Counted from the first letter of the stretch, positions 4,642 to 19,623 are shown. The stretch: DNA of 20,622 nt from a virus (IMGVR_UViG_3300041809_002715:1-20622), one strand, 5' to 3'. A program made the numbers and translations. The notes: generated from the sequence alone by a model not told the origin.

Positions 4642-6723
4642 TTAGGCTCCGGCGTTCTTGACTCCCGCGCGGCCATCCTGCAAAGCCACGCCAAAATCGT
4701 GATAACCGCGGAGTTTGAGACCGAGGTGGTCGAAGTCCGCCAGGGCGGTTTCAATGGTCGGAGACTCCTGGCCATTGAGGAACGCGACCTCGATAAGCGC
4801 CAGGTCCTCGGGGTCGGCGAGCAAGTACCACGCCGTGGTGCTGGAGCCGGTGTACTGGGTATTGCCCATGTACCGGCTCACCTCGGAGCGGAACTTCCCG
4901 GTGTGCGGGTTGGCCACCGGGTACTTGGTGTTGGCGGTCGTGTCGCGGATCTCCAGCGCCTTGAAAAGCTGGGTCGCCATCGCCGACAGGCCTGTCGGAA
5001 CCAGGATGATCGAAGGCATGATTCCGATGGGCTTGCCTTGGGCGTCCACCTGGTTAAGGAACATGGTCTCGGCGGCGGTGAGGCCGTCGATAGAGAGGAC
5101 CGAGCTTGCGCCGCTGATGTAGTTATTCGCCGCGGCAGTGAAGAACGTGGCGTTGTTCAGGAAGATCGTCCAGAACACGTCATTGATCTTGAGGCCGCTG
5201 CCGCGCCCCAGCTTCTGCGGCACTGTCGTAATGGCACCCAGGTCGTCATTGATAATGTCCCGGCGATCGACACTTAGGATCAAGCCGTAGGTATCCGCCT
5301 TGTTCGTGTATGTCTCGTTCCCCAGCGTCCCATGCTTGAGCTCCCCGCCTGGCGCCACCGGCTGATACTGATCGACGCCGATCAGACGGTAGCTGTGGGC
5401 GGTCTTGAAGTCCTTGACGCTGCGGACGGCGCAGATATTCCGCCAGGTCCGCTCGACCGAGAAGAATCCCTTCAACAGGAACTTATTGGCCAGGTTCGAG
5501 AGGATCCCGCTCATATCCACGGTCGAGAAGCCGCCCTCGCCGCGAACGTCGCCGTAGGGGTCGGCATAGGGCTCGCCGTAGAATGCCGCGCGCAAAATAG
5601 CACGGGTGTCGCGGAATGTGCGGCCGGTGTAACCATTGGCCCACGCGGCCTGAAGCAAGAGCTCCTGGAGGCCGATGCCGCCGCGAAAGTTCTTGGCGGC
5701 GACATCGAGTGTCTTTTCGTCATACACCTTCTCGATACCGTCCATGCGCGCTGTGAGCGCCGCAGCCGCTTCGAGCACGGTGCCGGTGACGTTGTTGTCG
5801 GGCACCTGCACGTTGGGCGCCTCGGGCCGGTCGCGAAGGATGGCCAGTTCGGTGTCCTTCACATCCCAGTTGTCGCGAATGGCCTTGGCGCAGATGTCGG
5901 GATGGTCCTCGCCGCAGAGCTTGCGGATGGCGCCAATCCGATCCAGCTCAGCGGCGGCTTCGATACGCATCCTGGCCACAGGATCGGCCACCATAGTGCC
6001 GTCAGCGGGCACGGCTGCGGCCTGGACAGGCGGCGCGGCCGGCGCCTGGGCGGGCTGCGCGGCGGCGGGCGCATCACTGGCAGCCGTCGCTGCCGGCGCG
6101 GTGGCGGTCGTATCTTGTGCGGTTTGGGTAGTCGTAGCGGTGTCCGTCATGGTGTCATTCTCCTTGGCCGCAGCGGCCACATTGGCTGAGGTGTTGCCGT
6201 CAGCTCCGATATCCACGAACGATATTTCGCCGAGCGTACTTCGCCTGACGACGTTGACTGGGCCTGTAAACTGGCGACCGTTCACCAGAACGGTCTGCCC
6301 TTCCTTGATGAAGTCGTACTTCTCCACGCGCGTGCCGATCGACGCCTGCCAGGGGAACCCGTTGCGCGCCCCCGCGACAACCTTGTCCGTGTCGGCACCG
6401 GGGATGCTGAGGACGCCCGCGGCCACAAGCCGCCCCGACTCTATGGCGATGGTGCTCGAATGGCCGACCAAACGGTCGGGGTTGTGGCCGACGCGAATGG
6501 GACGGTTCTGCGACGGGATGGCAAGCCCCGAGAAGTCCACGACCACGGGGTACCGCCACTGGGCGACCCTCATCAGCCCGCCGGTGTAGGCAACCATGCT
6601 GAAGCGCGGCAGCACCGGCGCGGCCGGGTCGGCGCCAGGGACGCCGGCGGCGAGGTCAAACTCCATCGCGGCGGTGAGCTCAAACCGCTCAGGCGGCTTT
6701 AGGTTTTCGGTCAGGTTTGGCAT
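4642..6723 (-). CDS. Prohead protease fused to scaffold-like linker and major capsid protein
   Basis: This 693-residue polyprotein has three parts. Residues ~35-185 resemble HK97/Mu-type prohead proteases: IRVGHNPDRLVGHSS supplies the conserved His (H80) and GFPWQASIG the conserved Ser (S128). Residues ~190-260 are an Ala/Pro/Thr-rich linker followed by a helical scaffold-like segment. From ~330 on the sequence is a Mu gpT-like HK97-fold major capsid protein (FKTAHSYRLIGVDQYQPV, GELKHGTLGNETYTNKADTY, DIINDDLGAITTVPQKLGRG, LKINDVFW). I chose the start MPNLTENLKP at 6723 because the 29 residues upstream of it (MNWACRSRSPSPNLS) lie inside the portal gene and look non-capsid-like. It overlaps the portal end by 35 bases. 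A strong internal ribosome binding site near 6160 suggests a second, shorter product starting at 6150 (scaffold plus capsid, 502 residues). Confidence 0.85.
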   Translation of the reverse strand: MPNLTENLKPPERFELTAAMEFDLAAGVPGADPAAPVLPRFSMVAYTGGLMRVAQWRYPVVVDFSGLAIPSQNRPIRVGHNPDRLVGHSSTIAIESGRLVAAGVLSIPGADTDKVVAGARNGFPWQASIGTRVEKYDFIKEGQTVLVNGRQFTGPVNVVRRSTLGEISFVDIGADGNTSANVAAAAKENDTMTDTATTTQTAQDTTATAPAATAASDAPAAAQPAQAPAAPPVQAAAVPADGTMVADPVARMRIEAAAELDRIGAIRKLCGEDHPDICAKAIRDNWDVKDTELAILRDRPEAPNVQVPDNNVTGTVLEAAAALTARMDGIEKVYDEKTLDVAAKNFRGGIGLQELLLQAAWANGYTGRTFRDTRAILRAAFYGEPYADPYGDVRGEGGFSTVDMSGILSNLANKFLLKGFFSVERTWRNICAVRSVKDFKTAHSYRLIGVDQYQPVAPGGELKHGTLGNETYTNKADTYGLILSVDRRDIINDDLGAITTVPQKLGRGSGLKINDVFWTIFLNNATFFTAAANNYISGASSVLSIDGLTAAETMFLNQVDAQGKPIGIMPSIILVPTGLSAMATQLFKALEIRDTTANTKYPVANPHTGKFRSEVSRYMGNTQYTGSSTTAWYLLADPEDLALIEVAFLNGQESPTIETALADFDHLGLKLRGYHDFGVALQDGRAGVKNAGA
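6148..6165 (-). promoter_or_regulatory. Internal ribosome binding site and in-frame start for a free scaffold-capsid product
   Basis: Within the protease-capsid gene the minus strand reads AAGGAGA (6165-6159), an eight-base spacer, then an in-frame ATG (6150-6148) that begins MTDTATTTQ. This is the best ribosome binding site in the structural region and lies exactly at the protease-to-linker boundary. It predicts a nested product comparable in logic to lambda C/Nu3, giving capsid subunits in excess over protease. Confidence 0.65.
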
Positions 6724-8164
6724 TGCGTGTCTCTTGCTCGTCTTCTTGCTCGGTTGGCGGGGCAGGCTCAAGTTGGGGCTTGGCGACCTCGATCGGCAGG
6801 CCCAGTTCATTCATCAGGGCCACTTCCTTCGCCCGCTGGCGAAGCTCCGCCTCCCAGTCCTTGCCCTGCTTGGCATATTCCGCCGCCAGCGTGGTGGTAT
6901 TGCTGGCCAGGCGCTGAGCCTGTGCGACGGCTTCCTTCTGGGGATCAACATGATCGTGGCCGTCCCAGAACCACTGGTGTGGCCATTCCTCCAGGCCGTC
7001 GAGTTCCGGGTACACCTTCACCGCCTCTTCCATCCAGGCATCAAGCAGGCGGTCCAGGACCACTCGCTCCAGGTCGGATTGATCCACGCGGATGGACTTG
7101 TAGTAGGTCTGGTGATCGAGGCGCCCGGAAGAATAGTTGTAGCCCGAGCTATTGCAGGCCGCGATGTTATAGGGCATGTTCAGGCAGCGGGCGATTTCGT
7201 TCAGAATCTCCCGCTTGAACATGTCATAGGTGGTCGAGGGCTGCTCGGCCTTGATCTGCGTGGGTTCCCATCCCTCAGGCCCGAACACAGCCATGTTGGG
7301 CTCGAACTCCATCGTCGTCATGGGATCGACTTCAGCCGCCTCCCCGCCCGCCGGCGCCGTCGTCTTCATAAAGATGGCAACGTTGGCCGCACTCTCCGCG
7401 GCGGCGATCACCGCCAGTGTGTATCTTCGCAATTGTGCAAAGAGCGGCAAAGCCGGCAGGATGTCCGGCAGCCCGCGGCTTTGCCCGGGCCGATCCTTGC
7501 GGAACCAGTGGACCATGTTGGCGGCCGGGATAACCCGGTACTTCAGCGGCATGGTGTGCAGAAAGTCGCCGGGGTGCTGATTGAGGACGTGGTATTCCTT
7601 GGGATTCCCGAACTCGTCGAGCACGATTCCGTCCACGAAAGTCGGCGTCGGCAGCGAAAATAGCGGCGTGGTGACCTGATCCGCCTCAATCAGCTTGGTG
7701 TCAAGTTTGACCGGATGCTGAAGTCGGCCATTCGTGTGAAGCAGGCCGAAGGCCTCGCCGTCCTGGGCACGGGTCTCACGCATGGTGCGGAGCTTGCCGG
7801 GCAAATCGATCGCCTTGGCCCAGGCAGCGAATTCACGTTCAATAAGGCCGTTGACGTTCTTGCCATCGTCATTCGTGCCGTCGCCAAGGAGCATCTGAAG
7901 ACGCGGGCCTGTGCCGACAACATCATTTGCCAGCGTCAGGACGACGCCCCTGGCGTAAGAGTTGTTGGCTACCTCATAGCGGGCGCGATTGCGAAGGACG
8001 CGGCGCACGTCAGGCCTGGCGGCGGCATTGGCCGACAGGAAATCCGCATGCGCCCAGTGGCGCCGGTTCTGCGACGTGGTATAGGCCGAGTCGAACGTAG
8101 CACGGATAAACCGCACCGCCGTCCGGGCCGTCTCCTTGACTCGCTTTGTCCAGGGCCACTTCAT
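6689..8164 (-). CDS. Portal protein (lambda gpB family)
   Basis: This 491-residue protein forms the dodecameric ring at the packaging vertex. The N-terminal part reads HWAHADFLSANAAARPDVRR, then LRNRARYEVANNSYARGVVL and LANDVVGTGPRLQ, the pattern of lambda-type portals (Phage_portal_2), in which an R-x-R-x-[EL]-x-x-N-x-x-[YA] segment precedes D-N-V-V-G-x-G. Later regions include EADQVTTPLFSLPTPTFVDG and NEIARCLNMPYNIAACNSSGYNYSS, the latter matching the conserved [LM]-G-[VI]-[PS]-[YF]-E portal core. A start at 8164 (MKWPWTKRV) is preferred over 8221 because the extra residues overlap the preceding gene, whose stop is at 8169, five bases upstream. The C-terminal tail (EQEDEQETRNAKPDRKPKAA) is acidic then basic and overlaps the protease-capsid start by 35 bases. 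Confidence 0.88.
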   Translation of the reverse strand: MKWPWTKRVKETARTAVRFIRATFDSAYTTSQNRRHWAHADFLSANAAARPDVRRVLRNRARYEVANNSYARGVVLTLANDVVGTGPRLQMLLGDGTNDDGKNVNGLIEREFAAWAKAIDLPGKLRTMRETRAQDGEAFGLLHTNGRLQHPVKLDTKLIEADQVTTPLFSLPTPTFVDGIVLDEFGNPKEYHVLNQHPGDFLHTMPLKYRVIPAANMVHWFRKDRPGQSRGLPDILPALPLFAQLRRYTLAVIAAAESAANVAIFMKTTAPAGGEAAEVDPMTTMEFEPNMAVFGPEGWEPTQIKAEQPSTTYDMFKREILNEIARCLNMPYNIAACNSSGYNYSSGRLDHQTYYKSIRVDQSDLERVVLDRLLDAWMEEAVKVYPELDGLEEWPHQWFWDGHDHVDPQKEAVAQAQRLASNTTTLAAEYAKQGKDWEAELRQRAKEVALMNELGLPIEVAKPQLEPAPPTEQEDEQETRNAKPDRKPKAA

Positions 8165-8168
8165 CTCG

Positions 8169-8399
8169 TTAGTAACCTTCCGTCGCGCCAGGCGGGACAA
8201 TCCTTGCCCGCCGGAGGCCAAAGTTGCGTTGCGTCATCGCGTTCTTTGCCGCCAGGTACTTGTCCGCCTCGATCTGATCGCGAAGCGAATGCTGCTCCAC
8301 GCTCGTGCCGTCCGCCGACGCCTTCGCAGGACCGCCAGCGTTGGTGGCTATCGCGCCAGACAGGTCGTTTGGCGCCGAATTTGTCGAATCGTCTGCCAT
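8169..8399 (-). CDS. Small pre-portal protein, possibly gpW-like head-tail joining
   Basis: This 76-residue protein begins MADDSTNSAPNDLSGAIATN and has a disordered N-terminus followed by a helix, SLRDQIEADKYLAAKNAM, and a basic end, NFGLRRARIVPPGATEGY. A short helical protein with a terminal R-R-x-[RK]-x-V-P-P-G next to the portal gene is common in lambda-like late operons, where gpW-type proteins occur. The gpW similarity is weak and by position. The start follows AGGTGA (8407-8402) by three bases. The tRNA-like element ends 11 bases upstream, and the stop is four bases before the portal ATG. Confidence 0.6.
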   Translation of the reverse strand: MADDSTNSAPNDLSGAIATNAGGPAKASADGTSVEQHSLRDQIEADKYLAAKNAMTQRNFGLRRARIVPPGATEGY

Positions 8400-8410
8400 G
8401 ATTCACCTAT

Positions 8411-8484
8411 TGGCGGGAGCCGGAATCGAACCGGCGTCGGACGGCTCATGAGGCCATGCTGGGGCCACTCCAGTCCATCCCGCT
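8411..8484 (-). tRNA. tRNA-Met-like element, anticodon CAT
   Basis: The minus strand folds as a 74-base cloverleaf. Acceptor pairs 2-7 are GCGGGA with TCCCGC, with an A-C mismatch at 1-72. The D-arm region holds a CTGG/CCAG stem. The anticodon stem is ATGGC/GCCGT with loop CTCATGA (anticodon at 8450-8448). The variable loop has five bases, the T arm is GCCGG-TTCGATT-CCGGC, and the discriminator is A. CCA is not encoded. The T arm and anticodon arm are textbook. The D stem is displaced by about two bases, leaving a four-base gap after the acceptor. A weak 1-72 pair is an initiator-type trait, but the GGG/CCC initiator anticodon-stem signature is absent. It could also be an elongator Met, Ile-CAT, or a decayed tRNA. 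It lies immediately upstream of the pre-portal gene on the same strand. Confidence 0.6.
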
Positions 8485-8707: not shown

Positions 8708-9145
8708 CTAGAACCTGTGCCCATTGCAGCCCCTGGCCGACGGTGTCGCCAACAGCAATTCGATCCTCGATACGCACTTTGAAAGGCCTTTTTCGATATT
8801 GTGCTGCCAAATCCGCAGCACTCTCCACCCGGCCGCCCGCAATTTTCGTTGGTTCCGACGATCCCGATCCCGGTTTCGGCAAATTTTCTCTCGCCAAAAT
8901 GGTGATGCCGTCGCCTTCCAGAGGGGGAAACGCCATCCATGCCAGAAGTCTCCATCGATGAACACGGCCACCTTGGCCGTGACAAAAACGATATCGGGCG
9001 TCCCCGGTAAACTCCTGACGTGCTTCCTGAAACGCAGGCCCCGCCTGTGGATGGCAGATCGCAACACTCGCTCCAACGAGGTGTCCCGATTTCGCACACG
9101 AGCCATGCACATGCTTCGCTGCTCAGGGGTGAGGTTATCAGTCAT
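8708..9145 (-). CDS. vsr: Vsr-family very-short-patch-repair-type endonuclease
   Basis: This is a 145-residue protein. The Vsr fold signatures are present in order: MTDNLTPEQRSMCMARVRNR with DTSLE (residues 1-25); LPGTPDIVF, with D51 at the position of the catalytic Asp of E. coli Vsr; VFIDGDFWHGW, the family His motif in the DGDFWHG form rather than HGCFWH; NRDRDRR (residues 91-97); and GWRVLRIWQHNI. Classical Vsr nicks T:G mismatches created by deamination of 5-methylcytosine. In gene clusters with a C5 methyltransferase and ATPases, Vsr-like proteins may instead act as restriction nucleases. A longer frame begins at 9244, but the conserved fold starts at 9145, with AGGAAGG about 14 bases upstream. 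It is divergent from the large ATPase gene. Confidence 0.85.
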   Translation of the reverse strand: MTDNLTPEQRSMCMARVRNRDTSLERVLRSAIHRRGLRFRKHVRSLPGTPDIVFVTAKVAVFIDGDFWHGWRFPLWKATASPFWREKICRNRDRDRRNQRKLRAAGWRVLRIWQHNIEKGLSKCVSRIELLLATPSARGCNGHRF

Positions 9146-9184
9146 AGGCCAAGGTTGCCTTCCTGTAGCCGCTTGTGGCGACCC

Positions 9185-9213
9185 TTGACGGGGGATGTCC
9201 GACCGGGTATCCT
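9185..9213 (+). promoter_or_regulatory. Candidate sigma-70 promoter for the ATPase-receiver pair
   Basis: TTGACG (9185-9190), a 17-base spacer and TATCCT (9208-9213) match a sigma-70 type promoter pointing toward the ATPase gene at 9307, with a leader of about 85 bases. The ATPase start has GGAG six bases upstream (9297-9300). The promoter call is by consensus only. Confidence 0.45.
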
Positions 9214-9256
9214 TCGGGACTTCCGGGGCCACCGGCGCGGCCACAAGGCCATGGGC

Positions 9257-9286
9257 ATTTTATGATGGATGCCTGGTCCGGTGCAA
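9257..9286 (-). promoter_or_regulatory. Candidate promoter for the Vsr gene
   Basis: On the minus strand TTGCAC (9286-9281), an 18-base spacer and TAAAAT (9262-9257) form a plausible promoter about 105 bases upstream of the Vsr start. It faces the plus-strand candidate at 9185-9213, so the two transcripts would overlap at their 5' ends. Confidence 0.35.
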
Positions 9287-9306
9287 AATAACTTGCGGAG
9301 CATCCG

Positions 9307-12003
9307 ATGACCAGGACTTATCTCGCTATAAGCCAATACTCCGAGGGCTCTATCTATCGGGATGTCGTTGGGAAAGTGTACGAATTCCCAAACAAGTACA
9401 AGGAGCTGTTGAATAGGCCAAACATCTTCTTCGTGTACTATGAGCCAAAGAAGAAAGGCGCCGGGGCGTACTTTGGCTGCGGACAGATCGGAAACGTTGT
9501 CGAGCGGGTCAGTCTCGAAGAGGACGAAGGAGCGGCGCGCCAAAAGATGTTCGTAGCGGAGGTCATAAATTACCGAAGGTTTGCCCAGCCCGTGCCGCTT
9601 GAACGCGAAAACGAAGCGCCCAGGGAGGAGATGCTTCACAACAGTGTTCGCGAGATTTCCCCTGAACTCTACAATGAGATTGTTCAGGCCGGAGGCGAGG
9701 AGGTTTCCTTTCAAGCCGACGCTCACCTCATGCGCGTCCTCGGCGAGCAACTCATCAGTTCGGAGAGGGTTGGGATCCTTGAGCTCATCAAGAACGCCTA
9801 TGACGCCGGCGCAAGTCGATGTATTGTTCGAATCGAGAAGGTGCCAGGTTTGTTTAAGCTCAAGCCTGACAGTGACGAATGGGTCGGTTCGCAGGTGGGC
9901 CCTGTTATCTCTGTTATCGATGACGGCCGAGGGATGGACAGGGATGCCTTGCTGAACGGTTGGCTGCGCCCAGCCACAACCCTGAAGACTCAAATCAAAG
10001 AGACGCTCAAAACTGAGCGGGAAAGGGCACGAGAGCGAGGGACCGAGGAGGCGTTTGAAGCTCTTGTGTTATCGCTCAAGAAAGCCAATGGAGGGCGCCT
10101 ACCGATCGGCGAAAAGGGCGTTGGACGGTTCGCAACGCATCGGCTCGGACGCAAACTGCTTCTTCTGACAAAAACATATGACGATCCACTGGAATGGGTG
10201 CTGAACGTCGATTGGGATCGTTTCGATGCCATCGCCGAAGAAGGTGTCGATCTGGCGGCCGTGGGGTTGAACCTGGAACATCGGACACCGACACAGGATT
10301 ACGGCCCACGCAAGTCCGGTACGATCCTCAAAATTTACGGGGGACGCCCAGGGTTTGACTGGAATGAGGATAAGCTCAAAGATATCGGTCGGGCAATCGC
10401 ATGCTTGCGATCTCCGCGGTCCGGGCCTGAAGGCTTCGATGTTGAGTATGATTGTCAGCACGTGGATAAGGGCGATCTTAAGAATCCTTTGCAATTAGCC
10501 TTGGCGCCCTTCGTGTGCGATGCGGCGGTCGATGAATCCGGGATGGCCTCTGTGGAGATAGCATTCAAGCCGCCGCCGAGCCTTCGCTTCCCAATGGCAG
10601 AACAGAAGTGGAGTTTCGACATCGATCTTCGGTCGAAGCGCGCCGGTTATTGGCACTCAGGTGACGGCAAATATCGTGTCCCGCGTTGTGGGCCGTTTTT
10701 CCTTTCTGTTCGATGTTGGCTCCGGCGAAAAGAATGGATTCATGGGGCGGACTGGAAAGAAGTTACAGATTACCTGAGCAATTTTGGGGGGGTGGATGTC
10801 TATCGCGATGGATTAAATGTCGTATCGGCGCAGAGTGGCTCCGAACGAGATTGGCTTGAACTCTCCACTCGCCACATCAAAAAGGGAGCCCACATCTCGT
10901 ATTATAATCTATCGGCCAGCGTCGATCTGGTGCAGCAGGATACACCGCATCTAGTTGACAAGACGAGTCGAGAAGGTCTTCTGGATACTGTACCATATAA
11001 AGACCTGTCACTATTGGTTCAGAGTGTTCTAGAAGAACTGGAACTGAAAGTTCGCGAGACTCGTGAAGATTATGAACGGCTTCATACTCAAGGTGTTCCG
11101 GGGCCGGAGATAAGCAAGCGGCATGCTGGGCAGCTCACTCGGCTCCTCGCAGCCTTGTCTTCACATTACGATTTCAATGACGATCCGGCCGACTTGATCC
11201 CGGCGATTGGTAAAAGCGATGCCCCCGTCGTCATCATCGAGGGTATCAGTGACACCATCAAGCAATTGCGTTCCTCAATTACCCAGCTTGAAGACCAGGT
11301 GGAGGGGCTTATTGAAGCTGCTGGATTTGGCCTGTCTATTGGCGTAGCCATTCACGAGATACTCAAGGTCACGACGAGCCTGGCCCTATCTGCGGCGAGC
11401 CTATATCGCGCAGTCGGCAAAAACTCACCTTTCCATGAGCAGCTATCCACGATCAAAGCGATGGCTGAGAGTTTAATGAACGAGGCCAAGCGTATCTCGC
11501 CTCTGCACGTCACCAGATTAGAGGAAGCCTCGACATTCCAGGTGCGCGATGCAATCCTTGCCGCGATGGGCGCTTTTCAGATGCGGTGGTCGGATTCTTC
11601 GATTGATGTGCCAGTGCCTCCTCGGACGCGCAGTTTCGAATTGACGCAACAATTCGGCGTATGTTCTCAAGTCTTTGCAAATCTGTTCGACAACGCCACT
11701 TATTGGGTTACCAGTCCTGACAACACAGGAGGCGCCAGAAAGATTTGCACGATGGTTGACCCGGACACACGCTCTGTGATTGTCGCCGACAGCGGCCCCG
11801 GCATTGCCGACAGAATCCGTAATCATCTCTTCCAGCCCTTCTACAGTCTGAAGAGCCCGCCAAGTGGACTCGGATTATACATCTGCAAGCATTACATGAC
11901 TCGCATGAAGGGTGATATTCGCGAAGCGCGAGACACTGAGCGAATGGCGGGACTTGATGGAGCGCAGTTTGTTATTGAGTTTCCCAGAGAGGGGCGATCC
12001 TAA
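9307..12003 (+). CDS. Reader domain - MORC/Hsp90-like GHKL ATPase - histidine-kinase-like fusion
   Basis: This is an 898-residue cytosolic protein. Residues 1-100 (SIYRDVVGKVYEFPNKY, FFVYYEPKKKGAGAYFGCGQ, VINYRRFAQPVP) resemble the PUA/EVE-like modified-base reader domain found at the N-terminus of some HNH restriction enzymes. Residues ~135-345 form a first GHKL ATPase: ELIKNAYDAGA (159-169), VIDDGRGMD (203-211), GEKGVGRFA (268-276). A transducer-like region follows with VDVYRDGLNV (496-505), as in MORC/Hsp90-like proteins of restriction clusters. A helical segment (~643-730) holds IGVAIHEILK with a possible phospho-His, H683. Residues ~745-893 are a second, kinase-type ATPase: NLFDNATYW, VADSGPGI, SGLGLYIC. 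The start is supported by GGAG at 9297-9300. Its stop overlaps the receiver gene by one base (TAATG), suggesting a kinase-receiver pair. No membrane segment or nuclease motif is visible. Confidence 0.85.
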   Translation: MTRTYLAISQYSEGSIYRDVVGKVYEFPNKYKELLNRPNIFFVYYEPKKKGAGAYFGCGQIGNVVERVSLEEDEGAARQKMFVAEVINYRRFAQPVPLERENEAPREEMLHNSVREISPELYNEIVQAGGEEVSFQADAHLMRVLGEQLISSERVGILELIKNAYDAGASRCIVRIEKVPGLFKLKPDSDEWVGSQVGPVISVIDDGRGMDRDALLNGWLRPATTLKTQIKETLKTERERARERGTEEAFEALVLSLKKANGGRLPIGEKGVGRFATHRLGRKLLLLTKTYDDPLEWVLNVDWDRFDAIAEEGVDLAAVGLNLEHRTPTQDYGPRKSGTILKIYGGRPGFDWNEDKLKDIGRAIACLRSPRSGPEGFDVEYDCQHVDKGDLKNPLQLALAPFVCDAAVDESGMASVEIAFKPPPSLRFPMAEQKWSFDIDLRSKRAGYWHSGDGKYRVPRCGPFFLSVRCWLRRKEWIHGADWKEVTDYLSNFGGVDVYRDGLNVVSAQSGSERDWLELSTRHIKKGAHISYYNLSASVDLVQQDTPHLVDKTSREGLLDTVPYKDLSLLVQSVLEELELKVRETREDYERLHTQGVPGPEISKRHAGQLTRLLAALSSHYDFNDDPADLIPAIGKSDAPVVIIEGISDTIKQLRSSITQLEDQVEGLIEAAGFGLSIGVAIHEILKVTTSLALSAASLYRAVGKNSPFHEQLSTIKAMAESLMNEAKRISPLHVTRLEEASTFQVRDAILAAMGAFQMRWSDSSIDVPVPPRTRSFELTQQFGVCSQVFANLFDNATYWVTSPDNTGGARKICTMVDPDTRSVIVADSGPGIADRIRNHLFQPFYSLKSPPSGLGLYICKHYMTRMKGDIREARDTERMAGLDGAQFVIEFPREGRS

Positions 12004-13577
12004 TGACTACGATAAGCGGCCGTAGCGTGTGGGTGGTTGACGACGATATTCCTGTCCAACAGTTGCCATGCAGTTGCGACGTTGTACGACTTGGTAGGCG
12101 ACCTGTGGACTCTGCCGAGCTCGTATTATTGACGGAGCAGGACTCGGCATGGGGCCAGGGCGTCGCCGTGAAGGAAGTCATAACGCGCCTAATCCAGGAA
12201 AAGGCGCAGGTTCTTGGTTTTACCGATCCCGATGGTGCATTATTGTATCTGTCAGGCGGTGGTTGCCCCCCGGATGTCATCGTATTCGATCTGAAATACC
12301 TCAATAAATCGCAAGAGGCCGTTAGAAAATCATTGGCAACCCTGCTCGCCAGCTACTATGTCACGGTTCAGGTCTATACGAATGAGCCTCAAGCCCAGGC
12401 AGAAAGCGAGTTGCGGGAACTACGCGAGAAGTTTCCTATGCGTTTGGCTGCTCCCGTGTCCAAAGGAGCTGTGGACGCCGTACATTTGGCTGGCATCCTT
12501 GACGAACGCCTAAAAGGAAGCTTGTCGGCTCACTTGGGAAGTCCTGTCAGAAAGACCGCATTGAAGGCCATCGAGTCTGCGCTTGTTCGCATAGGTGACT
12601 TACCTCTCGATAGAGTGTTTGGCGTCCTGACCGGTGCCGAACGGAATCATGAGGATGATGAGACGGCCGAGCAGTCGTTACTGGAGTTGCTGTATGTCAA
12701 ACTGGGTGAAGCCTTGCGAAGTGACCGGGGACTTCAAACGGCTGTCGCCACGGCGTGTGCCTCAAAAGGGATCGACGATTGCGCCGACGATATTGTCGCC
12801 ACAATTGTATCGCAGATCCGCCGACAGTTTCTCAGTGAAGGATGGCTCCGCAATACGCTTAAGTCGGTTATCGATCTACTTAGGTCGGCAACACGTGCCA
12901 ACCAGGCCGCGCCTAGGGAGCCGGAGGACTCGGCAGCCAGAGAGTTTTTTGCCTTTCGTGTCTATGACTTGCTGCCGAATGACATGGTTCAATGCGGAGA
13001 CATACTTCATTTCAGCATCTCGGGGCAAGAGCAGGATGCAATGGTTATCACGCCGCCCTGCGATCTCGACAAGTTTTGGAAGAAAACGAGAGGCGTGCTA
13101 ACGTTGATTCGCATGCGATCGTTTGAAGACGGATACAATTTGGCCCAAGTGGGAGGCAACAAGTTTGAAATTGGCAACAGCATAACGGCGAAAGAACCGT
13201 ATATTCTGCCTCCGATTCCTCCATCAAACATGGCAGATTGTTGTATCTTTCCCGGAGAGATATTTTCGTGGTGTCTAACGAAACCGGACGCAGCACCTTC
13301 TAAAGCCTCGCTGCCTGTTGAGCAGCTTGAAGCATTGAGCACCCGTTTCGGCGTTGCAGGGCTGAAGCGTTTGGCGAGAGTGTCCGAGCCTTTCCTGTCG
13401 GGAATCCTGGATAGCATACATCATGCTGTGTTCCGCATGGGCTTGCCAGATCGCCCCAAGGAAGAATACAAGCGAATTGATGCCCTAAAATCAGTGCAAG
13501 CTGCCGCCAAGACCACTACGACTACGACGCCGCCTGCTCCAGGTACCGTCGAACACAAGTCGCCTGCCTCCGAATAA
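12003..13577 (+). CDS. Receiver-domain (response-regulator-like) protein with unassigned C-terminal domain
   Basis: This is a 524-residue protein. The N-terminal ~165 residues keep the receiver signature: acidic cluster VVDDD (11-15), phosphoacceptor D96 in PPDVIVFDLKYL, T126 in VQVYTNEP and K154 in APVSKGA. About 40 extra residues lie between the acidic pocket and D96 compared with a standard receiver. A mainly helical middle (~165-300) follows. A C-terminal region has FAFRVYDLLPNDMVQCGDIL and ITPPCDLDKFW (349-359), ending FLSGILDSIHHAVFRMGLPD. It contains no obvious DNA-binding helix-turn-helix, and I do not recognise this region. The tail has a six-Thr run. The start is coupled to the upstream kinase-like ATPase by a one-base overlap, so that protein is the likely phosphodonor. 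The 3' end overlaps the convergent methyltransferase gene by 56 bases. Confidence 0.75.
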   Translation: MTTISGRSVWVVDDDIPVQQLPCSCDVVRLGRRPVDSAELVLLTEQDSAWGQGVAVKEVITRLIQEKAQVLGFTDPDGALLYLSGGGCPPDVIVFDLKYLNKSQEAVRKSLATLLASYYVTVQVYTNEPQAQAESELRELREKFPMRLAAPVSKGAVDAVHLAGILDERLKGSLSAHLGSPVRKTALKAIESALVRIGDLPLDRVFGVLTGAERNHEDDETAEQSLLELLYVKLGEALRSDRGLQTAVATACASKGIDDCADDIVATIVSQIRRQFLSEGWLRNTLKSVIDLLRSATRANQAAPREPEDSAAREFFAFRVYDLLPNDMVQCGDILHFSISGQEQDAMVITPPCDLDKFWKKTRGVLTLIRMRSFEDGYNLAQVGGNKFEIGNSITAKEPYILPPIPPSNMADCCIFPGEIFSWCLTKPDAAPSKASLPVEQLEALSTRFGVAGLKRLARVSEPFLSGILDSIHHAVFRMGLPDRPKEEYKRIDALKSVQAAAKTTTTTTPPAPGTVEHKSPASE

Positions 13578-14550
13578 ACTCAGGAGGCAATGCGTTGCCG
13601 ATCATCATCGCAACAGATGTCTTGCCTCTGTCGGCTGGAAATTGATACTTAGGGGGGAACGTCTGCAATAGTGCCGCTTCCCGCATCGTGATGGCTCTGT
13701 CCTGTTCTGGATGCAAGAACCGACCCTTTGAGGGATTGAAGCAGCCTCCTGTAAGCGTGGGGGCCACGTCGTCCCAAGCCATCCGGCCATAAACGTCCTT
13801 GAAGCCGTCACAGTCTTTGTGGCAGGCTAGCTGCAGTCTCTCGGGCAGGGCGGTCCGGCTGCCGCCGTTCTTTGGAATGTGTTTGATCCGTTCGATAGTC
13901 AAAGGCTTCCGATTTTCAGGAAAATCATGAATCGGGTCTCCGGTCGCTCCAGGCAAGGGGAGCGCCGCGATCGTGTGACGCACCGAAACGATGTTCGGCA
14001 AGATATCAGCGAAGTTGATCATTCCAAACAGCCCGGCCAATAAAATCAGCCTTTCCCGCCGTTGTGGGACCCCGTATCTCGCGGCGTCAAGCACATCGTG
14101 ATTGCAAGTATATCCGAGACCCTCAAGTCCCGCACAAAACCTGGCAAACCTATCGTCGTCTCTCAATTCGGGCACATTCTCAAGCATGATCGCCTTGGGA
14201 AGCAAACCCTCGGCAAGTCTAGCAAATTCGTCAATCAGGTCGTTCCTTGGATCATCGCTCTTGCGATGCCCGTTCCTGGTACGCATGCTGGAAAAACCCT
14301 GGCAAGGCGGGCAGCCGGCGAGCAGATCGAGTTCGGTCTGCCGAAGCCTCAATCTTTGCTTCACGGCGTCAACAGTAATATCTTGAATGTCCTTTTGCCA
14401 TAACTTGACTTCCGGGTGATTAGCAGAGTAGGCGCTAGCTGCAACGGGGTCTATTTCAATCGCCCCCGTGACCGAAAATCCCGCGGACTTGAGGCCCTGG
14501 GTCATGCCGCCGCATCCGCAAAACAGGTCTATGGCAAGATATGAGCTCAT
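13522..14550 (-). CDS. DNA (cytosine-5-)-methyltransferase
   Basis: This is a complete 342-residue C5 cytosine methyltransferase using S-adenosylmethionine. Motif I is DLFCGCGGMTQGL (8-20). Motif IV is AGCPPCQGFSS with catalytic C83. Motif VI is ENVPEL (124-129) and motif VIII is QRRERLILLA (163-172). A short target-recognition region runs from about 173 to 255, followed by YGRMAWDDVAPTLTGG. Motifs IX-X include GRFLHPEQDRAITMREAALL and IGNALPPEF. All catalytic and cofactor motifs look intact, so it is probably active, with target site unknown. It is convergent with the receiver gene and part of the Vsr/ATPase cluster. It may protect self DNA, and its 5-methylcytosine is also the lesion source that classical Vsr repairs. 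A candidate promoter lies immediately upstream. Confidence 0.93.
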   Translation of the reverse strand: MSSYLAIDLFCGCGGMTQGLKSAGFSVTGAIEIDPVAASAYSANHPEVKLWQKDIQDITVDAVKQRLRLRQTELDLLAGCPPCQGFSSMRTRNGHRKSDDPRNDLIDEFARLAEGLLPKAIMLENVPELRDDDRFARFCAGLEGLGYTCNHDVLDAARYGVPQRRERLILLAGLFGMINFADILPNIVSVRHTIAALPLPGATGDPIHDFPENRKPLTIERIKHIPKNGGSRTALPERLQLACHKDCDGFKDVYGRMAWDDVAPTLTGGCFNPSKGRFLHPEQDRAITMREAALLQTFPPKYQFPADRGKTSVAMMIGNALPPEFIRRQATCVRRYLEQAAS

Positions 14551-14565
14551 CGCGGAAAGCCTTCT

Positions 14566-14594
14566 ATTTTAATTATCGTGTGTTAGTCTAGCAA
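14566..14594 (-). promoter_or_regulatory. Candidate promoter for the cytosine methyltransferase
   Basis: On the minus strand TTGCTA (14594-14589), exactly 17 bases, then TAAAAT (14571-14566), in an AT-rich stretch. Transcription would begin near 14559, only about nine bases before the ATG at 14550. An AGAAGG at 14565-14560 would then lie outside the transcript. Either the mRNA is almost leaderless or a further-upstream promoter is used. Confidence 0.5.
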
Positions 14595-14641
14595 GCTTAA
14601 ACTAGAAACGCAGCAAAGAATTGAGGAATTTGGAGGTCGTC

Positions 14642-14863
14642 TCAGCTATCTGCAACCTGAGCAGTGTCCGAGATCGTTAGTTCCCACGTAGTCAGCCGTT
14701 TGCCGCAGTGGCGACATTCCCGGCGACGTAAGAGACGACCGCCAACGGCGCGTCGCGTATAGAGCACTCGCAGGTGCTTGCAGCCACAATTGCGGCATTC
14801 GAGGCCACGTCGATCGCCACAAGGATCCCATTTCTTGCGAGTAATCGCCTGATCGCTCATCAT
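14642..14863 (-). CDS. NrdR-like zinc-ribbon small protein
   Basis: This 73-residue protein is translated from ATG at 14863, which overlaps the terminase stop as ATGA and follows a good GAGGAG. The core reads ECRNCGCKHLRVLYTRR then RRRECRHCGKRLTTWE: two CxxC pairs (C23/C26 and C50/C53) with an R-R-R-E-C-x-x-C-G-K-R-x-T-T-[YW]-E signature identical in layout to the NrdR zinc ribbon and to small phage regulators of the Ogr/Delta type. The ATP-cone domain of NrdR is absent. It likely binds DNA or protein, perhaps a late-gene activator or a terminase partner, given the coupling to terminase. The upstream frame from 14962 lies within terminase and is not used. Confidence 0.72.
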   Translation of the reverse strand: MMSDQAITRKKWDPCGDRRGLECRNCGCKHLRVLYTRRAVGGRLLRRRECRHCGKRLTTWELTISDTAQVADS

Positions 14864-16923
14864 TTTCTCCTCAAGTCCTCTTGCGTGTAGCGTTTTCGCT
14901 CTCGCCTGGGCGTTGTTTGGCCCGCTTGGCCGATTCCAAGCATGCTTGCGGCGACGGCGCAACCGGTCAGACAGTCCAGCCAGTGGTTGTCAGGTTTGCT
15001 GGGCAAGAGCGTCCACTCGTGGACGGTCCGGCCGTGGCCCTGAGTGGTGGTCCAAGTCTCGCTGGCAGCGATGTGCTGGGCGAAGAGTTCGTGCTCGCGG
15101 GGCTGCCCAAAGAGCGTGAGGGCGCCAGCGTCGCCGGCGGAGGTGGCGAGGGCGGTGTGGGCGAACGTTTTCCAGTAGTTTACGTCCGAGGCCACATGTG
15201 GGAACTCGGCTGTGCGGTTGACGTTGGGGATGTACCAGTAGTGGCCGATGGTCTCGCCGGGGCGTCGGGCGTAGCTGCTCATAGGTTTGGAGCCTGCCCG
15301 CAGCCCAAGCCCCTTGTAGAGCATCATGGCCGAGCCACCTGCCTTGTGCTTGACGGCGGCGACGATACCCGGCTTGTAGCCCATGTCCACGAGCAGCCGG
15401 TCGATGCGCATCAGGCCGGCACCGCGTTTGAAGTCCGTGGCCAGGGATGTCGAGACCAGTTTCTCAAGGCCTGCCTGGATGGCGCCATCCTGGCCGGCGC
15501 CGGGGAACGTGCGCCCCAGCGTCTTGCGGGCGCCGTCGAGGGAGAAGATTCGATCGTTTTGTTCCGGAAATGTGCCGTAATCGATCACGAAACCGGTGAA
15601 GTCTTCCTGCCAGGCAACAACACAATAATACAACAGCTTGTTGTGGACATCGACGAACATGGTCAGCTTCGTGCAGGCCAGCGGCACCTCGCGACGCTGA
15701 CGGCCGTTGGCCTTCTCGCAGACCATCTGCACCGTTAGCAGATCCTTCCGTAATTCCGACGGCTTGAGCGGTTCGTTCTGGTATTCGGCGAAAAACGCAC
15801 GCTCGTTGTCGAACTTGAGGTTCATCGCGTGCTGGATCGCGCTGATCTCGCCGCGGGAGACCAGGTATCGTGCCGGCCAGGCCGCCACCGCGCCGGCGTC
15901 CATCTCTTCACGGCGGGCGAGGTAGAACTCCGTAGCTTCGTGGCCATCGCCATCGGCACGAAGACTTTCATCGCGGATGCGGGCATATTCCGCCCAGAGC
16001 TTGTCGGCTGCGGGGAAACTGTAGAGCAGCTTCGTCCGTTCGCCGTGCCAGGATGGGCTCTTCTGGCGGTCAAGAAGTTGGTCGGCCAGGTCGCCGCCCT
16101 GGATCACCGTGCATGGAATGATGATCGCCGTCCGCAGGCTGGGGCCGGCCAGCCCCTTAATGGCGCCATTGACGATCGACAGCCGCTCCGCCGTCTGGAG
16201 CATCGAGTGCGCCGACTGGTCCGTCTGCGGGTCATCGCACACCACCAGCGTGGGCCGCACCTGGCTGCCGTCGCTACGGACATACAGGGCACCACGGATG
16301 TTGCCGGTGATTCCCGACACGCGGATGATCGAGCCGGAGCAACGGCTGCCGGGGATGGTCGGCATGACGATCTCGTCCACGCCCCAGCCGATCCGCGTGG
16401 GGATGCCGTAGTACCGCTGGCCGGTGCAGCGCCGGGCCTCGCCCTCCAACAGGCGGATCGGGTAGATCGCTTCCGGGTAGTCGGCCAGCAGCAAGTCGTT
16501 GCCGATCATGTGGCTCTTGATGTTGGCCAGCATCGAAAGTGCCGATTCCTGGGCGCTTGCTATCAGGAACACGAACTCGTGCTGCCCCGACAGCACCGCC
16601 CACAGCACAGCCACCAGGCAAAGCGTGGTTTTGCCGCTGCCGCGGGGCATGGCCACCGCCAGCGTCTCGCGATATCGCACCACCCGCTCGATCTTGGCGA
16701 TCACGCGGAGGTGATCCTGCGACCATGCCAGCGTGAACAGGTGGGGAAAGTACGTCTCGCAGAAGAACTTGAAGTCACGGTCGGCCCGTGCGCGGCGGGC
16801 GCTTTCGCCGATCTTCGGCAAGGGCGCAATGTCCTGCCCAGCCAGCGTGATGGCTGCGGAACGCGCCTTGGCACGATCTTTTGTTTTCTGGTAAGCCCGC
16901 GAAGCTTGTGCGTGCTGTCTCAT
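14860..16923 (-). CDS. terL: Terminase large subunit
   Basis: This is a 687-residue DNA-packaging motor. The ATPase domain has a Walker A-like AMPRGSGKTTLC (91-102), an adenine-motif region with FLIASAQESAL, and a Walker B LVVCDDPQTD (226-235). The nuclease domain is a C-terminal RNase-H-like fold with TMFVDVHNKLLYYCVVAW (D425) and LLVDMGYKPG (D513). The N-terminus RDFKFFCETYFPHLF with AWSQDHLRVI is the usual entry of this terminase group. It threads DNA into the prohead through the portal. Here it is separated from the portal gene by ~6 kb of cargo, which is unusual because these genes are normally adjacent. No small terminase subunit is recognised. It ends in a four-base overlap with the zinc-ribbon gene. 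Start MRQHAQASRAYQ at 16923 lacks a strong ribosome site, so the exact start is moderately sure. Confidence 0.9.
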   Translation of the reverse strand: MRQHAQASRAYQKTKDRAKARSAAITLAGQDIAPLPKIGESARRARADRDFKFFCETYFPHLFTLAWSQDHLRVIAKIERVVRYRETLAVAMPRGSGKTTLCLVAVLWAVLSGQHEFVFLIASAQESALSMLANIKSHMIGNDLLLADYPEAIYPIRLLEGEARRCTGQRYYGIPTRIGWGVDEIVMPTIPGSRCSGSIIRVSGITGNIRGALYVRSDGSQVRPTLVVCDDPQTDQSAHSMLQTAERLSIVNGAIKGLAGPSLRTAIIIPCTVIQGGDLADQLLDRQKSPSWHGERTKLLYSFPAADKLWAEYARIRDESLRADGDGHEATEFYLARREEMDAGAVAAWPARYLVSRGEISAIQHAMNLKFDNERAFFAEYQNEPLKPSELRKDLLTVQMVCEKANGRQRREVPLACTKLTMFVDVHNKLLYYCVVAWQEDFTGFVIDYGTFPEQNDRIFSLDGARKTLGRTFPGAGQDGAIQAGLEKLVSTSLATDFKRGAGLMRIDRLLVDMGYKPGIVAAVKHKAGGSAMMLYKGLGLRAGSKPMSSYARRPGETIGHYWYIPNVNRTAEFPHVASDVNYWKTFAHTALATSAGDAGALTLFGQPREHELFAQHIAASETWTTTQGHGRTVHEWTLLPSKPDNHWLDCLTGCAVAASMLGIGQAGQTTPRRERKRYTQEDLRRK

Positions 16924-17071: not shown

Positions 17072-17776
17072 ATGTCCAAAATACGACTGGCGTTCTTCGA
17101 CATGGAAGGCACTATATTTCGACAGGCGGTGTCGAGCTCCGAAACTACTGTTGCGCCAAGCGCTTGGGTGGCAATTGCCCAGCGCCTGGGGCAGGATGCT
17201 TATGAAGAGGAACTGCAGACCCAAAAAAGATGGAAGAGTGGAGGGTACAGGTGCTATCTCGACTGGATGCAGGACACCATTTCGATTCACCAGAAGTATG
17301 GATTGCGTCGAACGGATTTTGAAGACATTTTATCACATATCGATTTCATGCCTGGCGCCGCGGAGCTGTTTGGCGCCTTCCGTGATCGTGGCGTCCCCAC
17401 CGCCTTGATCAGCGGCGGCTTTAAGTTCCAAGCTGATCGGGCGGTTGCCTTCCTTAAGATCCCTCATGCTTTCGCATCTTGTGAGTACTTTTGGGATGCT
17501 AACGGCCGCTTGTCCCATTGGAACCTTTTGCCAGGCGACTATATGGGCAAGACTCATTTTATGCGAATGCTTGCCGAGGAGTACGGGGTGCCTATTGAGG
17601 AGTGCGCCTTCGTCGGAGATGGGGAAAACGACAGTCGGTTAGCCCAGTTGGTGGGAGTATCTGTCGCCTTCAATGGGGCACCAGAGCTTGTTAAAGTGAC
17701 GACACACAGCGTCTGTCAACCCAGGGGACAGGAATCATTGGCACAGCTTCTTGAGATATTGGAATTGCGAACATGA
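17072..17776 (+). CDS. SerB-like HAD-family phosphatase
   Basis: This is a 234-residue HAD hydrolase with all four motifs: I, LAFFDMEGTIF (nucleophile D10, with Glu at 12 in place of the usual general-acid Asp); II, TALISGGF (S114); III, K160 in MGKTHFM; and IV, FVGDGENDSRLAQLVG (D183, D187). A helical cap (residues ~15-95) follows motif I, as in phosphoserine-phosphatase-type (subclass IB) enzymes. Substrates in this group are small phosphates such as phosphoserine or nucleotides; which one applies here cannot be read. The stop overlaps the cytidine deaminase start as ATGA, so the pair is probably made together and a nucleotide substrate is an attractive inference. Composition is more AT-rich than the terminase beside it. 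The upstream ribosome site is weak. Confidence 0.8.
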   Translation: MSKIRLAFFDMEGTIFRQAVSSSETTVAPSAWVAIAQRLGQDAYEEELQTQKRWKSGGYRCYLDWMQDTISIHQKYGLRRTDFEDILSHIDFMPGAAELFGAFRDRGVPTALISGGFKFQADRAVAFLKIPHAFASCEYFWDANGRLSHWNLLPGDYMGKTHFMRMLAEEYGVPIEECAFVGDGENDSRLAQLVGVSVAFNGAPELVKVTTHSVCQPRGQESLAQLLEILELRT

Positions 17777-18174
17777 CCGATAAGAAGACCCAAAAGAAAC
17801 TTTTCCGTATGGCCATGAAGGCTGCCACGAGATCTTACTCTCCCTATTCGAATTTTGCTGTTGGCGCCGCGGCCCTGACGAGTAACGGTTCGATCTTTCT
17901 GGGAACGAACGTTGAGAATGCCTCTTACGGGCTCACACTTTGCGCCGAACAGACGGCAGTTGCTAATGCGATAGCAAATCGGGGCGGCAAGATCGCAGCT
18001 GTGGCTGTGTATTGTGCCAAATGTGAGATCACTCCCTGCGGAGGATGCCGACAATTCATAGCAGAGTTCGGGCCGAAGGTTGAGGTAATCTACATGGCAA
18101 ACGGCGAGCTGGTGTCGCAGTTTATCTCCGAAATGCTGCCTTCCGCATTTACCAAAAAGGATTTGGAAAAATGA
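17773..18174 (+). CDS. cdd: Cytidine deaminase (Cdd family)
   Basis: This 133-residue protein is the size of the small tetrameric cytidine deaminases that convert cytidine and deoxycytidine to uridine and deoxyuridine. SPYSNFAVGAAA (23-34) and GTNVENASYG (44-53) form the substrate pocket. LCAEQTAV gives zinc ligand C57 and catalytic E59, and TPCGGCRQF gives ligands C89 and C92. All are intact. It lies between the HAD phosphatase and the membrane GAF protein with ATGA overlaps on both sides. A free-nucleoside salvage enzyme in a phage late region is unexpected; a role in altering the pyrimidine pool, or in defence by depleting cytidine nucleotides, is inference. It could also deaminate an unknown modified nucleoside. 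Confidence 0.92.
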   Translation: MTDKKTQKKLFRMAMKAATRSYSPYSNFAVGAAALTSNGSIFLGTNVENASYGLTLCAEQTAVANAIANRGGKIAAVAVYCAKCEITPCGGCRQFIAEFGPKVEVIYMANGELVSQFISEMLPSAFTKKDLEK

Positions 18175-18833
18175 GATGGGGATTATTGAAAAGGCCTTCC
18201 TTTTGGGTTGGGTTGGCTATTGCCGTAGGAGCAATTGTTATAGCGGTGGCTAAGCTGGATACCGACCCGCATTGGAAAATAGTCATTATCGGTGCGATGG
18301 GCGTTCTCTACTTGCTTTCTCAGTATTTCAACGTGTCCTATCTTTCAAAAGCTGACGCGAAAGAGCAAGTGCAGATGCGGTTGGAATGCGTCAATTCACT
18401 TAAGCATCTCGACCCGACTCAGAATTTGCGTGCCAACATATTCATATTCAGCAAGAAGAGCAACTCATATCATATCATTCACCAATACAACATGCAGACC
18501 GACAGCGACAAGGATGTCGAACTCCCCAAAGGCGAGGGATGCACCGGGCGCGCATGGACATCGAGAACTCAGGTGTGGGGTGATAAGGGCCAGATTCTCC
18601 GATCAGGCGATCATCGTGTGCCTGAAAACCAGGTATCCAAGATAAGGCCTGATCTTGAGTGGGTCTGTAGCACTCCCATTTTCGATACGAAGCGCCGTGA
18701 GGTGGTGGCCGTAATCAATTTCGACGGCAATAAGCCGATGGATCCGAAACAGCAGCAAGTCGTCATGGAACATGCAAACCGACTGGCGCATGAGTTGGCT
18801 TGCGTGTATGCACGCATCGGGAAATTCGTTTAG
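18171..18833 (+). CDS. Two-transmembrane GAF-domain sensor-like protein
   Basis: This is a 220-residue protein. Two N-terminal hydrophobic helices (about 11-27, FWVGLAIAVGAIVIAVA, and 36-53, KIVIIGAMGVLYLLSQYF) are joined by a short polar loop, followed by a helical linker and a cytosolic GAF-type domain (about 65-212). GAF features include RANIFIFSKKSNSYHI, GEGCTGRAW and VCSTPIFDTKRREVVAVINF. GAF domains bind small molecules such as cyclic nucleotides or metabolites, or act as dimerisation switches. There is no kinase, cyclase or nuclease domain attached. The start overlaps the deaminase stop as ATGA. The plausible role is a membrane-anchored sensor or effector controlling the two soluble enzymes, or a membrane-disrupting effector gated by ligand. 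Its stop is seven bases from the convergent ParB-like gene stop. Confidence 0.75.
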   Translation: MRWGLLKRPSFWVGLAIAVGAIVIAVAKLDTDPHWKIVIIGAMGVLYLLSQYFNVSYLSKADAKEQVQMRLECVNSLKHLDPTQNLRANIFIFSKKSNSYHIIHQYNMQTDSDKDVELPKGEGCTGRAWTSRTQVWGDKGQILRSGDHRVPENQVSKIRPDLEWVCSTPIFDTKRREVVAVINFDGNKPMDPKQQQVVMEHANRLAHELACVYARIGKFV

Positions 18834-18840
18834 GCCAGCC

Positions 18841-19623
18841 TCATTCTTGTCCAAGATTTCGCTCAACCAAATCGAGAAGAAGGCCAAACGCCGTGGCCGT
18901 GTTTTTGACGCCTGCCTGTTCCTTGGCGATGGTCAGGGCGTCGAGCATGCGGTCGTAGTCCGCGCGGCGGTTGATCCAGGTGCGGTCGCCGGTGGCCTGC
19001 TCCATGATCTTGGCGAAGAGCTTTTCTGCCCGCTCGACTTCCTCGGGCAGGAAAGCAATCGAGACGATACGGTACTCCAGGCCCTTTTCTGACAGCGGGT
19101 CGAGGTCTGGCGGCTCCATGCGGCCCAGAACCACGTCATCGAGGCCGGAATATTCCTTCAGGGCCACGTCATTGATCTCGTCATAAAGCTCGCGCAGGAT
19201 GGCCAGGTCATCCTGGCCGGCGATGGCATTGTGGGCAAGCTGTATGGCCACCTGCTGGGCATGGCTGAGCTGGCGGTCGCTATAGAGGACCAGCACTTCC
19301 GCCAGCCCGGCATCCTTGGCGGCCTTGACGCGATGATTGCCCGAGAGGATCGTGTAGCGGTCCTCCTGCGGCGTTGCACCGGCGTGGCGGATGGCAAACG
19401 GCACGCTGGTAAGGCAGCCGTCGCGCCGGATGTTCTCCACCAGCCGCTTGTACTGCTCGACCCGCATGAAGCGGGCGTTCTTCTCCAGCAGCTCGCACTG
19501 GCTGATCGGCACCATCGCGATCCGCAGGCTCGACGCCGCGAGCTTTTCGTTGACGCGATCCAAGCCGTGGGCGGCCGGCTCCGTTGATTCACTCACCTTG
19601 TCGCATGATTGGCTATCCACCAT
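18841..19623 (-). CDS. ParB-like (ParB/sulfiredoxin-fold) phage protein
   Basis: This 260-residue protein has an N-terminal ParB-like nuclease-fold domain: NARFMRVEQYKRLVENIRRD, then YTILSGNHRVKAAKDAG (the G-x-[HR]-R-x-x-A-A motif, about residues 91-106), and LSHAQQVAIQLAHNAIAGQDD. The C-terminal half is helical (VERAEKLFAKIMEQATGDRT, ending LLLDLVERNLGQE). Such proteins are frequent just upstream of phage terminases, often beside DNA-modification genes, and their biochemical role is poorly known. I chose the start at 19623 because a perfect AGGAGG (19636-19631) lies seven bases upstream; a Met at 19647 would place that site inside the gene. It overlaps the end of the Mom-like gene by 31 bases. 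Confidence 0.8.
   Translation of the reverse strand: MVDSQSCDKVSESTEPAAHGLDRVNEKLAASSLRIAMVPISQCELLEKNARFMRVEQYKRLVENIRRDGCLTSVPFAIRHAGATPQEDRYTILSGNHRVKAAKDAGLAEVLVLYSDRQLSHAQQVAIQLAHNAIAGQDDLAILRELYDEINDVALKEYSGLDDVVLGRMEPPDLDPLSEKGLEYRIVSIAFLPEEVERAEKLFAKIMEQATGDRTWINRRADYDRMLDALTIAKEQAGVKNTATAFGLLLDLVERNLGQE

Follow-up and report, generated by a model that had tools for sequence, protein, structure and literature searches.

A phage-borne gene cassette joining a MORC-like ATPase/histidine kinase and a receiver protein to a C5 methyltransferase, a candidate phosphorelay-based defence

INTRODUCTION

Kinase-like proteins with the domain series HATPase_c_3, HEF_HK and HATPase_c were described by Bellieny-Rabelo et al. 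in 2021 (PMC8011034), together with receiver-like neighbours that are 91.6% linked to these kinases. The pairs are overrepresented next to type II restriction-modification genes, most of all those for C5 methyltransferases, and in 20 genera they adjoin Vsr genes. MORC-like ATPases (paraMORC) had been linked to methyltransferases and Vsr by Iyer et al. in 2008 (PMC2292703). Three further systems are relevant here. VcSduA, a GHKL-fused Shedu nuclease, was found by experiment to require its GHKL ATPase for anti-phage activity (PMC12137116). CapK, an unrelated GHKL kinase, regulates immune operons (PMC13373217), and Detocs is a defensive two-component system (PMC11249213). For kinase–receiver pairs of the 2021 kind, we found no experiments beyond the expression data behind that paper, subscription literature being mostly outside the search.

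Here we analyze a viral locus in which such a pair lies between a Vsr gene and a C5 methyltransferase gene.

RESULTS

The four genes occupy a variable slot among phage head genes

The window, meaning the whole stretch of DNA analyzed, spans an entire virus record, 20,622 bases (20.6 kb) long. Its capsid, portal and terminase genes are all on the minus strand. Between terminase and portal lies an insert at 53–55% GC, compared to ~60–66% in the flanking head genes. It carries four genes, and all of them proved to be open at the positions given in an earlier note on this DNA:

6689–8221, minus strand: portal
8411–8484, minus strand: tRNA-Met (CAT), called by ARAGORN, at the edge of the cargo slot
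8708–9145 (ORF to 9244), minus strand: Vsr-type endonuclease (TIGR00632; PF03852, 2.2e-25)
9307–12003, plus strand: MORC-like ATPase/histidine kinase fusion, 898 residues (PF13589, PF02518, full-length relatives, AlphaFold model)
12003–13577, plus strand: receiver protein, 524 residues (adjoins the kinase in close loci; model mean pLDDT 77)
13522–14550, minus strand: C5 cytosine DNA methyltransferase, catalytic C83 (PF00145, 2.3e-57)
14860–16923, minus strand: terminase

The stop of the kinase gene shares 1 base with the start of the receiver gene, and the receiver and methyltransferase genes overlap by 56 bases, tail to tail. A promoter scan gave scores no better than shuffles.

For comparison, we collected 77 related viral contigs through the terminase. 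The terminase-to-portal distance in these contigs is mostly 0.5–3.6 kb, versus ~6.7 kb in the window. Slot contents, read by eye, vary, with an AbiEi-like gene and genes for an HNH-type protein and for proteins ending in PEP-CTERM-like tails among them, and only one of the 77 contigs has any tblastn match to the window methyltransferase. No close DNA relative was found in the phage collection. The same tRNA-Met gene is found in the same slot of related phages L190 and L196, and may be an insertion landmark. The four-gene segment is a mobile cargo cassette of the phage. Slot genes in two other relatives (L194, 12242–13015; L184, 12490–13602) are for an HNH-type protein and for proteins carrying PEP-CTERM-like tails, which would suit a planctomycete host.

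A second low-GC cargo insert (17072–18833, plus strand) lies between the terminase and a ParB-like gene, where relative L184 has a gap of only ~75 bases. Its genes, joined by ATGA start–stop overlaps, encode a HAD-IB-type phosphatase, a tetramer-type cytidine deaminase and a membrane protein of GAF-like appearance, whose GAF-like part weakly matches a patatin-like phospholipase on a Paracoccus plasmid. PADLOC gave no convincing match in this insert. Also adjoining the ParB-like gene is a gene (19593–20579, minus strand) that fuses the Pfam domains 'DAM-like-phage1' and 'GNAT-phage-like'.

The kinase protein combines a MORC-like ATPase with a histidine kinase

The 898-residue protein divides as follows:

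9307–9660, plus strand: N-terminal domain, residues 1–118, putative DNA/modification reader (conserved in 12 aligned sequences)
9697–11070, plus strand: MORC/MutL-type GHKL-S5 ATPase module, residues 131–588 (Bergerat-fold residues invariant)
11353–11355, plus strand: codon of H683, predicted phospho-acceptor histidine in the DHp helix
11665–11988, plus strand: histidine-kinase catalytic domain, residues 787–894 (PF02518, 7.6e-16; N and G boxes conserved)

Pfam assigned HATPase_c_3 (PF13589) to residues 155–308 and HATPase_c (PF02518) to residues 787–894. The AlphaFold model has a mean pLDDT of 70, with residues 595–686 poor. Foldseek aligns it with the MORC2 ATPase along 532 columns (E 2.4e-8), and HK853 is also among its structural matches. 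Its C-terminal end matches histidine-kinase cores with Z of 16–18. By PF13589 and the MORC2 match, the protein contains the GHKL ATPase and S5-type transducer of MORC/paraMORC ATPases. In both nucleotide pockets, 15 highly divergent homologues of plasmid and phage origin all keep the key residues. All 15 diverse and all 12 close sequences have H683, with E/D directly after it.

The ATPase region also matches NF050001, the model for BbrUII/HgiDII, at 8.6e-4 in the window (17.9 bits over the ATPase region only, short of the 550-bit cut-off) and at 5e-25 in relatives. The module is a distant relative of the corresponding part of BbrUII/HgiDII restriction enzymes. Apart from this shared region, no recognisable restriction nuclease domain was found in the kinase or the receiver.

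Most of the kinase family lacks residues 1–118; the window protein and its nearest relatives have them. With a profile of this domain we found a match (E 2e-6) in the N-terminal half of an HNH endonuclease from Roseomonas, an enzyme with relatives on at least 167 plasmid records. The domain itself has no Pfam match and no significant PDB sequence match. Its occurrence on HNH endonucleases is compatible with a DNA-reading role, which lends plausibility to the reader domain proposed in the earlier note; an EVE/PUA-like fold, based on strand order, would be a guess.

The receiver protein carries a conserved output domain

Two parts of the receiver protein are named here, separated by a helical middle part:

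12003–12533, plus strand: REC domain with D13, D14, D96, T126 and K154
12936–13472, plus strand: conserved output domain, residues 312–490, candidate effector (possible MazF/PemK-like barrel)

The 524-residue sequence alone has no Pfam match. A receiver-family profile matches solved PDB receiver domains (1.4e-10), and the model aligns with solved receiver domains at Z 15.5. Of 80 related receivers, every one has D96, 79 have T/S126 and 78 have K154. The two-component hallmarks are complete, with the histidine and the N and G boxes in the kinase and a D-D-D-T/S-K active site in the receiver. Such near-universal phosphotransfer residues make signalling from H683 to D96 likely. Taken together, the Pfam, profile and model matches bear out the MORC-like ATPase, kinase and receiver assignments first made from sequence, and the residues then singled out (H683, D96, methyltransferase C83 and Vsr D51) are all present and conserved.

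The output domain is conserved as well, with G332 in 80, C353 in 76, D354 in 67 and G480 in 73 of the 80 related receivers. In a Foldseek search with the 524-residue model, E. coli MazF (5cqy) was matched with probability 1.00, E 3.4e-3 and TM 0.67 by target. This one match is a hint of a MazF-like fold. PemK_toxin (PF02452) had no match in the window, the Arg-Pro pair conserved in PemK-type proteins is not apparent in the output domain, and comparison of the domain profile with four PemK-type proteins was not significant, though the top-scoring alignment had a plausible register. No recognisable DNA-binding fold was seen in the domain. Whole-model structure searches were filled by receiver and kinase cores, so other domains were barely probed.

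Methyltransferase and Vsr

The methyltransferase motifs, PCQ and ENV among them, are intact. Its identity to 11 sister enzymes (see below) is 46–49%, and the C-terminal region, including NPSKGRFLHP, is nearly identical across sister cassettes. The Vsr protein scores 131.9 bits with TIGR00632, over the cut-off of 97.85. Because Vsr homology starts only at codon 34, the gene probably begins near 9145 rather than 9244. D51, the catalytic residue, is present, and alignment shows that the cysteines conserved in sister Vsr proteins are absent.

Kinase, receiver and methyltransferase recur together

We scanned 84,980 species genomes, and also viral contigs, with a family alignment. An alignment was needed, as single-sequence pattern scans with the kinase or the receiver returned nothing from the genome or viral collections; tblastn with the receiver gave no plasmid relatives. 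Twelve loci, one of them truncated, have the same N-terminal domain. In the other 11, the sister loci, the receiver and a methyltransferase of the same type directly follow the kinase. These loci come from Aminicenantes, Bacteroidota (including Melioribacteraceae), alphaproteobacterial contigs and one phage; some of the bacterial contigs exceed 1 Mb. The kinase homologues are full length, with ~37–42% identity. Two of the 11 (L027 and L029) have a receiver gene that appears disrupted. Vsr is nearby in eight, at varying position and strand, and in two an HNH endonuclease gene follows the methyltransferase. No separate restriction enzyme was seen in most close cassettes.

Distance matrices of histidine kinase, receiver and methyltransferase correlate with r of 0.74–0.85 (permutation p ≤ 4e-4). 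The recurring gene order in 11 loci and these correlations show that the association is beyond chance. The earlier note had asked for recurrent linkage among the four genes, and the profile search and neighbor listing found it for kinase, receiver and methyltransferase in 11 loci, with Vsr in eight.

In the wider family, profile searches place a receiver-family gene directly 3' of the kinase at no fewer than 107 of 146 loci. Of 160 loci, 130 have a methyltransferase gene (C5 or N-type) or a PAPS-reductase gene within 7 kb, and 47 have both C5 and Vsr. Some relatives adjoin a complete restriction-modification system; the one in Rhizobium BT03, for example, has an EcoRII-C type enzyme beside it. 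Longer kinase–receiver pairs, with receivers of ~640–680 residues, occur in L003, L004, L013 and L016; their neighbors include a PAPS-reductase or similar gene and a large ATPase gene, an apparently phosphorothioation-like setting. Beside the cassette of L026, a conjugation protein of TraG/TraD type and the C-terminal half of Vsr share one open frame (13250–15202), which looks like a fusion or a recombination scar.

The window pair is a divergent relative of a described family

Like the HEF_HK/Response_reg_2 pairs of 2021 (PMC8011034; PF19191, PF19192), the window pair has the same domain order, phospho-histidine helix and adjacent receiver, together with a C5 methyltransferase and Vsr. HATPase_c_3, the histidine helix and HATPase_c follow one another in that order, with the receiver gene next door. 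HEF_HK (PF19191) scores 13.0 bits at 11329–11508 (E 0.003), below the curated cut-off of 24.1, and gives a sub-threshold match in five of 12 close sequences. Response_reg_2 (PF19192) has no match in the window; at E ≤ 1 it is found in eight of 80 related receivers, the best at 1.4e-5. The window pair is a divergent relative outside both 2021 Pfam models, without formal membership. Unlike the described pairs, it has an extra N-terminal domain and a methyltransferase gene that lies beyond the receiver gene, and its conserved output domain was not noted in the 2021 paper. The suggestion that the combination was undescribed does not hold: the same kinase architecture, receiver neighbor, C5 methyltransferase and Vsr were in print in 2021. 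With the basic arrangement already reported, what is new is a branch with a reader-like domain, a fixed methyltransferase type and a conserved output domain.

Other systems share parts of this arrangement. The paraMORC restriction loci (PMC2292703) likewise place a GHKL and S5 module next to genes for a cytosine methyltransferase and Vsr, but in the window a full histidine kinase follows in the same chain, and the protein has a receiver partner, unmentioned in that paper. BbrUII/HgiDII enzymes (NF050001) have a homologous N-terminal GHKL ATPase region, to which the window match is weak; the likeness stops after ~200 residues, and a kinase half replaces the remaining part of the enzyme. VcSduA has a GHKL ATPase too, yet its nuclease (DUF4263) is in the same chain, and it has no phosphorelay or methyltransferase. 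In Detocs, two-component parts have likewise been recruited for phage defence; it differs in having three genes and an ATP-cleaving PNP effector, and is not known to include a MORC ATPase or a methyltransferase. No PNP domain was found in any of the four genes. The effector of Detocs is linked to its receiver. PADLOC has no model that matches the kinase or the receiver, so no experimentally known system backs a defence assignment.

DISCUSSION

The likeliest reading, with chances that we judge to be about even, is that the cassette is a methyltransferase-paired restriction-type (anti-phage/anti-plasmid) defence built on a phosphorelay. Several lines of evidence argue for this: the conserved kinase–receiver–methyltransferase cassette in 11 loci, and the methyltransferase or PAPS-reductase neighbors of the wider family; near-invariant catalytic residues, with kinase and MORC2 folds in one chain; kinship of the ATPase to BbrUII/HgiDII, and an N-terminal domain common to HNH endonucleases; and co-variation of the three genes, in a variable phage slot of lower GC. 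Against it are the lack of a recognisable restriction nuclease domain in kinase or receiver and the failure of the MazF likeness in profile–profile comparison.

How might such a defence work? By homology, the methyltransferase would mark self DNA. Where the mark is absent or foreign, the kinase may engage DNA via its N-terminal domain and a MORC-like ATPase clamp. Engagement would trigger autophosphorylation of H683 and transfer to D96 of the receiver, for which all catalytic residues are present. Phosphorylation would then switch on the C-terminal domain, possibly a MazF-like barrel, which in the weakest step of the scheme may cut nucleic acid or recruit a nuclease. Vsr would repair T:G mismatches arising from cytosine methylation. 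VcSduA, CapK and Detocs provide precedent for each element. Restriction fired in this specific way, from reader and MORC clamp through kinase to a receiver with a MazF-like effector, is a tentative proposal, possible but on the doubtful side. The earlier note had named Vsr or the receiver C-terminal domain as effector; the latter is borne out as a candidate, and the absence of Vsr from three of 11 sisters, together with its varying position, makes the former doubtful.

It is also conceivable, if rather unlikely, that the kinase–receiver pair is a signalling regulator of a neighboring restriction-modification system and not itself a part of restriction, as Bellieny-Rabelo et al. proposed (PMC8011034). 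Relatives that adjoin a complete system, as in Rhizobium BT03, are consistent with this, and CapK shows that a GHKL kinase can control immune operons (PMC13373217). Yet the output domain lacks a recognisable DNA-binding fold, and most close cassettes have no separate restriction enzyme to regulate.

We consider it improbable that the cassette serves the phage, with a methyltransferase that protects phage DNA against restriction by the host and neighbors that are passengers or control when methylation occurs. Its position among phage head genes would suit such a role, but the same cassette occurs in bacterial contigs, including some of >1 Mb, and kinase, receiver and methyltransferase co-vary. 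Still less probable is that no phosphate is transferred, with both ATPases only looping or clamping DNA and the receiver as a structural partner. MORC/MutL relatives are indeed thought to act by DNA looping without phosphotransfer (PMC2292703); this reading fits poorly with the retention of H683 with its following E/D, of the N and G boxes and of all five receiver active-site residues in very divergent pairs. That Vsr is the effector nuclease, cutting foreign DNA once the phosphorelay fires, is very improbable: it has a restriction-enzyme fold and is linked in eight of 11 sister cassettes, and the window copy lacks the cysteines conserved in its sisters, but three of 11 have no nearby Vsr, its placement and strand differ among cassettes, and a Vsr gene is a common repair companion of C5 methyltransferases (PMC8011034; established knowledge). 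Vsr is optional in these cassettes and, judging from this and from its family, probably acts in mismatch repair.

If phosphorelay-driven restriction is the correct reading, discrimination of self from non-self DNA would be relayed by phosphate, and not by a DNA-reading nuclease. Kinase–receiver pairs of this kind are widespread, mostly beside DNA-modification genes. The window branch is compact, conserved and small enough to transfer, and hence would allow a direct test of whether a phosphorelay drives restriction.
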